Shown in pieces: positions 1 through 6,190 of a DNA stretch of 64,000 bases. Under the pieces are notes generated by a model. That model searched no databases and was not told where the DNA came from. It worked only from the letters and a program-made list of their open reading frames with translations. Numbering within the stretch: the first letter of the stretch is position 1; each line of letters starts with the position of its first letter. Origin of the DNA: Blastomussa wellsi. Lineage: Eukaryota > Cnidaria > Anthozoa > Scleractinia > Plerogyridae. The stretch covers positions 43,978,733 to 44,042,732 of the forward strand of contig OX393561.1 of NCBI GenBank assembly GCA_947652115.1. The letters are read 5' to 3'. A program made the position numbers and the translations under genes.

Positions 1-2
1 GA

Positions 3-203
3 AGGAAAAGTCTTAGTGCTGCAGAAGAACTGGAGACGCGTCGCATTGCAAAGGCTAGGATTCATGTGGAACGTTTTAATGAACGCCTTAAACAGTTAAA
101 ACTTGTTGGTAGAAAAATACCTTTGTCCTTAGCTCCTCTTGCAACCCAAATGGTAGTAGTTGCTGCATTTCTTGTCAATTTTCAGAAAGTCCTTTGTAAG
201 TAG
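3..203 (+). CDS. DDE-type transposase, C-terminal end (partial)
   Basis: An open frame runs from the window edge to TAG at 201-203 and encodes the last 66 residues of a protein. It contains RIHVERFNERLK, then PLSLAPLATQMVVVAAFLVNF. This is the pattern of the C-terminal end of DDE_Tnp_4 (PIF/Harbinger/ISL2EU-like) transposases, where a basic helix with the last acidic catalytic residue (RxHVER, the E) is followed by a hydrophobic helix near the end. The first two Asp residues and any THAP or HTH domain would lie upstream of the window. It converges on the SAP/YqaJ gene at 1751-5330. Family assignment is by motif only. Confidence 0.68.
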   Translation, partial: RKSLSAAEELETRRIAKARIHVERFNERLKQLKLVGRKIPLSLAPLATQMVVVAAFLVNFQKVLCK

Positions 204-255
204 ACATTTGATTTAAAACCCATTGTTTGAATACCGATTTAATTTTATATACTTA

Positions 256-584
256 GGGGGTGATTACATGGCGAATTTCAGCCCGGTTAGCCAGGCTAAG
301 ATTTCAGCCCGGGTTCTGAAAGAGGTCCTCTTGAAATGAAAGTGGCGATTACATGGAGAAGGTTTCTGCCCGGGCTGAAAATATCCAGCCCGGGCTGTAA
401 GGCTGAAATACCTCATGTAATAGAAGTAAAATTTCAGCCGGGGTTGAAACTTGAGTTTGGGCAGGCGTAGTGATGGAATATTCAAAGAAACAAAATGGCA
501 GTAATGGATAAATTGGGCTGAAACTCGCCATGTAATTGCAACAAAATTTCAGCCCGGGCTGAAATTTGCCATGTAATCACCCCC
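256..584. mobile_element. Harbinger-like MITE with TTA target duplication
   Basis: The ends form a terminal inverted repeat starting GGGGGTGATTACATGGC at 256 and ending with its complement at 584. Both ends are flanked by TTA (253-255 and 585-587), the 3-bp TWA duplication expected of PIF/Harbinger elements. The interior repeats the motifs GATTACATGG and CAGCCCGGGCTGAAA several times, so the whole unit can fold back. No coding capacity is evident. It lies between the transposase tail and the convergent YqaJ gene. Confidence 0.72.
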
Positions 585-1750: not shown

Positions 1751-4700
1751 CTAACCACAATACACTAAATAGCTTAATGAAAAACCCAGTGGCTCAAGAA
1801 ACATGGTTGGAGAAAATAAGATTCCAGAGCCTTTCTTTCTATACTCCCTTAGGCCATCATACAGGCACCAGTTCCCCTTGAAATAAAAGATACAAATGTA
1901 ATGACCACCATTCCAAAGTGTTGCACCATACAAATTAAAACTGTTTCCAAATACCGAAATTACAGGTGGCGTATTTGACAGCTTAAGAAAACCTCCCCGG
2001 CTGAGAAGGTCAACTGAAAACACAAGAAATGATTTAAAATTCAACATTGAACGTGGGCTGCTCGCCCTTACACCTGCACAATGCCATGACATGTTTGCAT
2101 CACCATTTTCATCTATAGTGACATCTTCCACAAATGGGGTTCCTTCTGCAGGCTGGCTTGCAAATTTCCTTCCGCAGTGTGAATCTGGTGGAATCAGCCA
2201 GTCATCAATAGCATCCATAACCACATTGTTGTGGATTTGCTGGGAGGGCTGTGGCAATATCACTGAAAAAGACTGGATTGTGTGGACTTCCAATGGACAG
2301 GTATTGAAGCAGCAGGTTGTTGTGAGAGTGCTTGTTAGGTAGGGACGTAGCAGCATTAAAAAGAAGTCGCCTTCATTACCGTACAAGTCCAAGGTTCCAG
2401 CCACAACTGCGAATAACAAATCATCAATAAAAAAAAGTTCTAAGTAAAAGTTATGTGTTTATAATTTTGAAAAGCACCCCTTCCCTAAGCCATCATTTTG
2501 CTCAAAGTGAGAAAGTAAGTGTTAATGTAAGCTTAAGGGAGGGATAGGTCGGCAGTTTGTTATCATAGCAGCAGTGATTATAAATAAACCTATAAAAAGT
2601 GACCTCTGTGTGTGATTAATATATCTTTATGATAATTTATAACAATGTATTTCACAAGCGCCTGCTGGATATGAGAGGGTAGAGACATATATCCAACAAG
2701 ATGAATATATCACTTAGTTGGCTATAACTATCTGATACCCAACAAGTGCGACTGGAATAATTGTTTTTTTTTTAATCAAACAGCCACAGAAATGCCTCAA
2801 AGTTGGCTACAATCATTACAAAAAAAGATACGCAAACCCAACATATTATTTTGCAATGGTATATGTCCATTGCCTGCCAACCAATCAAAATTAGCATTGG
2901 TAATATACCATAAGTAGCCTTTAATAATAAAAACTATCTATTACATAAAGCATACAACAATGTACCTTGATGCTGTTGCGGTAAAGACTGCAATATGAGT
3001 AACTTGGCATCCGCATAAAGGCCATCATCTATAAGCCTCAGTGCTGTCGCTATCGTGTGGCCTGACTCTGGAAGGTCCTGGAGCTTCACCTTGTATGATT
3101 TTACAAGAGCCTGGAAAATCATTAGCCAATTATCTAATGGACAAGTATTGGTGAGTGTAATTCCATTACTTGTCAGTCCACCCCATGGGAAAATAGTCAG
3201 TTCCTGGTCTTGTTTACTAGCAGTTGTAGGGTTACAAGATGTTTTGGTAACTGATAGAAGAAGAGCTTCTGCGGCATCCATTTCCCCTTGAGTGTACAAG
3301 CTGTCAGCCAAGAAGGACTCTTTGGACTCACTGGGAGGCGTGGCAAGATCCATCCTATCAGCAGACAGTTGTTCCTGATCAGGGGGCATATCTGTTTCCA
3401 GGCAGTCAACAGGTGACGGTAAAGAAGTGCAAGTGGTAGGGTCCTCATGATCAGGTGTCAAGCCATCAACAGGCGATGCAGATAGAGGAGGTTCAAGTGG
3501 ATCTAACCTTTCAACAGCCTCTGCTAAAATCAGTGGCAAGAGATCCCTGGGGACACGCATTTCAAAAATCTCTGGGGCAATAACACGAGTCCACAAAGCT
3601 GTTAGATTGTGCAAAATCTTCTCAATGAGTACTTCATCTCTTGGGATCCTTTCCACTGAGTCAGGACCACTAGCAGCATGTAAAATAAAATCACAGTACT
3701 TTCTACCAGTCACAAGCAGGATCTGCTGACATTGGTAGTAATACGAATGGGAACGCTTTAAAACACACTTTCCATTCTCCACTTTAAAGCATTGCCTGCT
3801 AAGAACACTCTTAGGGACTTGGGATGTAGAAGATGCGATTGTTTCTACACTGTACTGCTTTAAGATTTTAAGTGACTTAATCTCGATAACAGTATCACTG
3901 CCAACCAGGCCATCCGGAGAGCAACCAAGGAATGGGAACTTGGGGTTCACCCAAAATCCTGTTTGAAAGACTTTTGTCTTTGTGGCATTCTCATACTTCA
4001 GTATCGCATCAGGCTCACATTCCAGGCCATACCTCATCCAGTATGACTGAAAGTGCTCTGATTCCAGTCTCCAAATGTTACTAAAAATGAACTTACTGGC
4101 TTCTACAGCTGCATTCGGCTGAGACTCGACAACAAGTTTTCCAACTTTAAAAGCAGACAGACATTTTGATGCAGTTAGCCTGCACCACCGTTCTGAGAAC
4201 CATTTCTCAGATTTACTCTGCTCTGCTGTTCCTGGTATTTGCATCAAGGTTTCAGGCTTCAAGTTTTTGTGCAAGGCACTCACTTGCTCTAACAAGACTC
4301 TTTCTCTGTCACATTCAAGGTCATAATCATTGTAAGTCATTTTTAGCTGAGTTTCCCACATTATGAGTTCTTCGCCCTCAGCTTGAGACAACGCTTGTAC
4401 ATTACAAAGAAAATTGTTTATGTGGTGCACGTTGACGTTTCGATATTTCACTGGTCTCGGATCGAAATCAATCACGTTCAAAGAGGCGTTCTTGTTCTTT
4501 CCAGGGTATTTTGCATCACTAACCCTACGGGGATTTTTGTTTCTTTTCTTGCCCTTGTTCCATGAACATTCTTGGCTTGTGCAAGGTTGTGTTAGCAATG
4601 GCCCGTGCTTTTGAACGTAGTCAAGGACAGAAAATAAAACAGCCACAACATGACTACATCGACCCAAAGAAGAAGCCCGGCATGGTTCGCAGGAGGCATG

Positions 4701-5330
4701 AAGAATAGCGCCACTGTTCGCAGAAAAAACAACAGTGACATTGTGTGGCAGTTCGTTTCTCATCGATGGCCAAACGTGAGCTCTCACAAAATAATGATCG
4801 GCACTTGCCGTGTCCATAATATCGTGCACAAATCCGGAATCCACATATTTTCTCCCATTTTTCATTGGCTTATCGGTCATATGGCCCAGTCCGTCTTCGA
4901 TGTCTTCGGCACCATTAGAAACATTTTGGATAGATTCCAACGCATAATAGTGCACATGTCCATAGTTGAAAAGCGAAGGAATGTTCTGCGACGGAAAAAC
5001 GCGCCAGCCGGTCGAAGGAATAATAGGAACAGAGTTTAAGGGGCAATTTCCTTGTAACTCTGAACTTTCTTTGATAATTTTCGCAGCAAACCATTTACCA
5101 TTGTCGATGCTTGGATCGAGCGTGTGGAGATTTCCGCTCTTCAAGCAGTCGCTTACACGTTTCAGAAGCTCGTCTCGTTTCCCGTTCAATTTCAATCCTC
5201 TACATTTAAGCCATCGTTTTAACTGTTCCACAGTATACTCCTCCGGCTCTCTTTCGAATTTAGACCCAGGAACGCCATCCTCATCCGTTAAAACAGTAAA
5301 ACATTGCTGAGCACTGCTCGCCATTCGCAT
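1751..5330 (-). CDS. SAP-SWIM-YqaJ nuclease fused to USP-like protease, two exons
   Basis: Exon 1 is 5330-2966 and exon 2 is 2406-1751. The donor (CAAG|GTACAT) and acceptor (TTCGCAG|TT) are both phase 1 and give a protein of about 1006 residues. Domains in order: a SAP-like DNA-binding helix pair (about 31-65, EQLKRWLKCRGLKLNG); a SWIM-like Cys/His cluster (about 210-235, CEPC...CSH); a YqaJ-type exonuclease core (about 375-590) with SPDG, EIKS and QCQQILLVTG motifs giving the D, E-x-K and Q residues of the fold; then TNTCPLDNW (about 727), which resembles a USP Cys box, and WNGGHYICIF (about 957), which resembles the USP His box. Cellular role is inferred: DNA-end processing linked to a mobile element, possibly with deubiquitinase activity. 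A CRE palindrome TGACGTCA lies at 5401-5408, about 75 bp upstream of the start. Confidence 0.8.
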
Positions 5331-6190
5331 ACATTTCCCTTACTTCTCTTACAGAATTGGACTTTGTTTGTCCGACCCACGACGGGGGTCTGAAATTTCG
5401 TGACGTCATTAGTGCAAAGCGCTATTGTACTACACTATTATACTCTATTTACTACTATCCAAATGCCAAGTATGTGGGTCATGTACTTGAACGAGTATTG
5501 ATATCTCCCTTGACTTTAAAAAAACTCTGTCACTGATCCTCAGTGGATCCTCTACGTCTTGCATTGAATGACTGATTACCTTGGATGACCCTGTGCTAGT
5601 TGTGGAACGCGGAATAAATGTTTCTTCTGGAATTGTGACCTTGTCTCGTAAAGAGTTCAGTTGAGAAGACGATTGTTAAAACGTACAGCTCTTCCGTACC
5701 GAGTTCTTGCACCCAGTTGCCATTGTCGCGCATTGAATCAAAGCAACGAGAACACGAGGCTGTACGGCTGTACGAGCTAACATCCGGCATGGAATCTCAC
5801 GAAGTCTACGCATCATTGACCAAAACAGTGTATCACATACAGTATGAACTGGAAAAGACCGTAATTGCAAACCACAGAGTTAAATTGTAAGCTGATATAA
5901 TGAACCCTGATGCGTTGTAAAACAAAACACTTCGCTTGCAAAACAACCGGATGCCGACCGTTCTAAAGAGTGTTATCACCGCAGACACTTTTTTTCACCG
6001 AAAACCGCGACTGAAATGTTGTAATAACCGCAAACCGCTTAGTGTTATAAAACCGCAATACCGCGAGTTACAATAAAAATTACAGCAAACCGCAAACCCT
6101 TACGCCCCCTCCTTGAAGTTTGAAACCCTAATCATTCAAAGCCTGCCTGATGGCAGATGACACAACATGAGCGCTAGCTGATGACTTGAT

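Follow-up and report, generated by a model that had tools for sequence, protein, structure and literature searches.

A YqaJ nuclease gene with a USP-like tail faces a transposase end in the coral Blastomussa wellsi: a likely second gene of an ISL2EU-like transposon

We analyzed a 64,000-nt stretch of the genome of the coral Blastomussa wellsi (GenBank assembly GCA_947652115.1, contig OX393561.1, positions 43,978,733 to 44,042,732 of the forward strand; G+C content 40%), hereafter referred to as the window. Near its left edge, a minus-strand gene (5330-1751) encodes a protein that joins SAP and SWIM-like regions, a YqaJ nuclease domain and a C-terminal USP-like tail, and this gene converges on the end of a DDE transposase gene. 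On balance, we favor the interpretation that the YqaJ-USP gene serves an ISL2EU-like cut-and-paste transposon (PHIS group) as its accessory, or second, gene, with the transposase tail at 3-203 as its most likely partner. That the two genes form one mobile element is likely; a DDE transposase together with a YqaJ gene is the published content of ISL2EU. The features that carry this interpretation are the following.

3-203, plus strand: final, C-terminal part of a DDE_Tnp_4 transposase, matching PF13359 at profile positions 100-158 of 158 (E 9.5e-11); the gene starts before base 1
5330-2966, minus strand: exon 1 of the YqaJ-USP gene, with SAP, the SWIM-like motif, the YqaJ nuclease and the start of the USP domain, including the Cys box NTCPLDNW at residue 728 (Cys codon 3143-3141)
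Residues 32-59 of the encoded protein: SAP (E 1.7e-6, above Pfam cut-offs)
3702-4205, minus strand: YqaJ nuclease domain, residues 376-543 (PF09588, E 1.9e-13, above Pfam cut-offs), with SPDG and EIK motifs
2965-2407, minus strand: GT-AG intron, containing a repeat at about 2640-2930
2406-1751, minus strand: exon 2, carrying the larger share of the USP domain; the codons at 1903-1901 (His) and 1858-1856 (Asp) are assigned catalytic roles on the basis of motifs

The two exons encode 1006 aa without a stop codon or frameshift, and this intact frame rules out that the gene is broken. P0061, a partial gene model from Desmophyllum pertusum, reads through the same junction and backs the splice. Diverged copies of the intron repeat lie at 51697-51959, 58113-58341 and 25913-25975 (70-84% identity over pieces), and a plasmid search with the intron as query returned no match.

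The sequence-only reading of this DNA had described the gene as a SAP, SWIM, YqaJ and USP fusion. This make-up was borne out: matches in Pfam and the PDB uphold the nuclease, and structure together with conserved catalytic residues upholds the USP part. In a PDB search, the YqaJ domain matched the sequence of LHK-Exo (3syy, E 5.4e-11), and profile alignment places its SPDG and EIK motifs in line with those of this enzyme. The residues of the PD-(D/E)xK motif are present, and the Glu and Lys of EIK are invariant across a 16-row alignment. In a first structure model, made for the relative P0010, the YqaJ fold matches LHK-Exo and lambda exonuclease; with a pLDDT of 49.3 this model is too poor by itself, and its YqaJ and USP matches are consistent with the later results. 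The SWIM label is based on a C-x2-C...C-x-H motif at residues 214-227, with no profile match behind it.

A linker separates the YqaJ domain from the tail (residues about 712-1006). The tail of the window protein carries the residues of C19 peptidases, namely the Cys box NTCPLDNW at 728, GGHY at 955 and YDG at 971. The predicted model of a relative that shares 61% identity over 97% of the tail has a USP fold, and on this model the Cys/His unit of the YqaJ gene is confirmed as a predicted USP fold. Fold matches together with conserved catalytic residues rule out a chance resemblance. Some results pull the other way: the Foldseek TM-scores of the tail are moderate (best listed, 0.53-0.57), the Pfam UCH profile does not match the window protein and matches 2 of the 61 tail-family members (best E 0.052), and sequence-profile searches of the PDB with the tail reached no USP structure. 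By USP, we therefore refer to fold and motifs, not to membership of the curated Pfam UCH family.

Among the best fold matches of the tail are USPL1 (SUMO) and USP18 (ISG15), and the triad residues Cys, His or Asp are substituted in a few rows (2/35, 5/60 and 4/59). Both observations would fit a USP fold whose substrate is SUMO, an ISG15-like tag or some other tag, or that serves as a binding module without protease activity. We consider this a lesser possibility, as the triad is kept in nearly all rows and the window protein has it too. We also considered, and rejected, the idea that the tail came from a virus: its 39 viral-library matches (E up to 0.001), most of them annotated as large-virus ubiquitin hydrolases, share 8-17% identity with it and are no closer than cellular matches.

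The YqaJ-USP fusion is not local to the window. Relatives, with named coral sources including Porites evermanni, Acropora digitifera, Stylophora pistillata and Desmophyllum pertusum, range in identity from 37 to 85% (rows P0001-P0049) and from 40 to 91% (tail matches). The Cys box is found in 25 of the 51 relatives, and Cys and His boxes occur together in 12 of the 51, accompanied by the YqaJ EIK motif in 12/12 cases; these 12 are a floor and not a rate, as many of the others among the 51 are partial entries. The protein is entered whole in some relatives (e.g., P0010) and as two separate halves in others. Six of eight tail matches, picked by eye among 107, sit on contigs equal in size to that of one match from the 51-relative set, which fits, indirectly, two halves on one contig. 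Nine full-length proteins were compared, after exclusion of two partial rows from the 11-row alignment; in them, the N-terminal-YqaJ part and the tail show correlated distances (r 0.72, permutation p 0.0015), as expected of halves staying joined.

An intact frame of 1006 codons with conserved catalytic residues is also what could be seen in a transposon gene that the host has domesticated. We regard domestication as very improbable, since the many relatives and their wide identity range suit a mobile family with numerous members better than a single orthologue, and since a transposase end adjoins the gene.

Two further proteins join ubiquitin-type proteases to SAP-SWIM or SWIM-YqaJ regions in other ways. 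P0050 (Frankliniella, USP36-like) carries, ahead of SAP-SWIM, a UCH domain that Pfam recognises and that lacks its beginning (profile positions 83-254 of 254). It is a gene model and may be the product of an annotation join; its alignment covers SAP-SWIM only, and we use it as a parallel, not as sequence evidence for the tail. P0051, a predicted protein of 977 residues on a 3,409-base contig, combines SWIM-YqaJ with a PHD finger and a Ulp1 protease. Should both prove real, SWIM-YqaJ-type proteins have been joined by three kinds of ubiquitin-type protease.

The transposase tail (plus strand) and the YqaJ-USP gene (minus strand) point at each other across 1.55 kb without recognised coding sequence: nine open reading frames (ORFs) of at least 60 aa lie within 204-1750, and none of the five tested matched a Pfam family. 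This gap holds a miniature inverted-repeat transposable element (MITE).

256-584, no strand assigned: MITE with terminal inverted repeats (32 nt, 97%) and TTA flanks at 253-255 and 585-587

Its TWA target duplication and terminal inverted repeats are those of PIF/Harbinger MITEs, and we take it for a separate PIF/Harbinger-type insertion that is part of neither gene. Frames and inverted repeats agree with the convergent layout around a MITE given in the sequence-only reading, whose limits of 1-5410 also fit the two genes. Its comparison with ISL2EU proved apt as well, as published elements encode both a DDE transposase and a YqaJ protein (PMC4482050). ISL2EU transposases have DDE, HTH and THAP parts, and the second gene of these elements encodes a YqaJ domain; AT is duplicated at the target within A|AT|T, the terminal repeats start with GG and the mean length is ~4.84 kb (PMC4482050). 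Both kinds of gene, convergent and with a MITE between them, give the look expected of an ISL2EU-like element whose second gene is longer.

Several observations count against a single element of this kind. The transposase-YqaJ pair is known from a single locus, where terminal repeats, a target duplication or a second copy were not seen, and repeat searches within the window did not locate the element ends. The transposase stop and the outer end of the YqaJ gene alone lie 5.1 kb apart, more than the ISL2EU average for a whole element. The THAP and HTH parts of the transposase would lie upstream of base 1, beyond the window. Scans of viral contigs and prokaryote genome contigs, with two peptide patterns per scan, found no relatives and so gave no further locus to show the gene pair. 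Clusters of relatives reach 427 members, possibly through repeated sequencing rather than copies per genome, and their sizes were not treated as copy number.

The transposase frame is open from base 3 and stops at 203, which leaves 66 residues inside the window; these cover the final 59 PF13359 profile positions only and do not single out PHIS. A GTAAGT at the transposase stop (190-203) is a possible splice donor, and a further transposase exon is possible. A tail whose place within PHIS is not fixed by 66 residues, a single locus and a MITE-bearing gap without recognised coding sequence would also suit two neighbours, in which the tail comes from another DDE_Tnp_4 transposon (e.g., Harbinger, or an ISL2EU without this gene) and lies beside an unrelated or older YqaJ-USP copy. 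We find this unlikely: DDE and YqaJ are the published ISL2EU pair, so chance adjacency is the less economical explanation.

For the favored ISL2EU-like element, the right end would fall outside the YqaJ-USP gene.

5331-6520, no strand assigned: stretch probably holding the right element end, which was not located within it; bounded by the ATG at 6521

CCATT occurs at 5720 and 6366 in this stretch and is not diagnostic of an AT target duplication. The ORF with its ATG at 6521 has no Pfam match and is taken for the first exon of the gene that follows.

7160-7423: exon of a pyridoxal phosphate (PLP)-dependent enzyme of Cys/Met metabolism (PF01053, E 3.2e-15), probably a flanking host gene

Also to the right of the YqaJ-USP gene, an 83-aa ORF at 5639-5890 gives a weak match to the 3H domain (E 0.0014, 19.2 bits against a cut-off of 25), and a hairpin at 6193-6254 has two 28-nt arms (TAGCCTGCGTGCAGC...) that are 89% complementary, with a 6-nt spacer. 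An inverted repeat at 7614-7716 (33-nt arms, 91% complementary) lies near the PLP-enzyme exon. An Rfam search of 1-8000 returned no match. Elsewhere in the window, a minus-strand reading frame of the FAM92 family spans 45201-46109 (PF06730, E 2.4e-48).

If the two genes act as one element, the DDE transposase would cut and join DNA, the SAP and SWIM regions may keep the accessory protein on DNA or chromatin, and the YqaJ domain could trim DNA ends at the excision gap or at the element tips. The USP tail might then strip ubiquitin or a ubiquitin-like tag from break proteins, or from transposon proteins for their stability, and repair would be steered or degradation avoided. A nuclease and a deubiquitinase fold in one gene suggest a testable idea, namely that end processing is combined with control of ubiquitin marks at transposition breaks, and hint that the element may manage the host response to DNA breaks. 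In 2015, the role of second genes in PHIS transposons was called unknown (PMC4482050), and Ulp1 and OTU on Ginger1 had prompted the suggestion that the ubiquitin/SUMO pathway has a role in transposition (PMC2836005). If our proposal is true, USP joins Ulp1 and OTU among transposon proteases, on a different kind of carrier protein.

Tentatively, and with less than even confidence, we extend this to an ISL2EU-like clade in corals and their kin, in which one accessory protein would process DNA ends and remove ubiquitin at the break, and to independent joining of divergent USP, classical UCH and Ulp1 with SWIM-YqaJ-type proteins. Independent joins, if true, would make ubiquitin/SUMO control at DNA breaks a recurring need of such elements.

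Among known systems, ISL2EU (PMC4482050, PMC9179366) is alike in having a PHIS-kind DDE transposase next to a second gene that encodes a YqaJ exonuclease domain; it differs in that the covered part of PMC4482050 makes no mention of a USP tail and neither USP nor protease occurs in that of PMC9179366. Ginger1, Mutator and Helitron elements with Ulp1 or OTU (PMC2836005) likewise pair transposon genes with a cysteine protease of ubiquitin/SUMO type, but from other families, and Ginger1 has its protease on the transposase, whereas here it is on the YqaJ protein. The Trichomonas vaginalis protein XP_001314237.1 (transposase_11 with peptidase C19) also combines C19 (USP) with a DDE transposase, but the protease is fused to the transposase itself, and YqaJ is unmentioned in the part of PMC2836005 covered here.

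P0050 (from Frankliniella) and P0051 share with the window protein the joining of SAP-SWIM or SWIM-YqaJ to ubiquitin-type proteases; they differ in the Pfam-recognised UCH ahead of SAP-SWIM in P0050 and in the presence of Ulp1 instead of USP in P0051. LHK-Exo (3syy) and lambda exonuclease share the nuclease fold, with SPDG and EIK aligning with LHK-Exo. Both are phage-type recombination enzymes and are not known to carry the other domains of the YqaJ-USP protein.

The sequence-only reading had held that such a pairing is not described as a system. This is too strong, as links of DNA transposases with Ulp1, OTU and C19 proteases have already been published (PMC2836005). The particular fusion of a USP to a YqaJ protein was not found in searches of a library of open-licence PMC papers, Repbase entries lying outside that scope. 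Taken with these known systems, the YqaJ-USP gene is probably a new version of the ISL2EU second gene.
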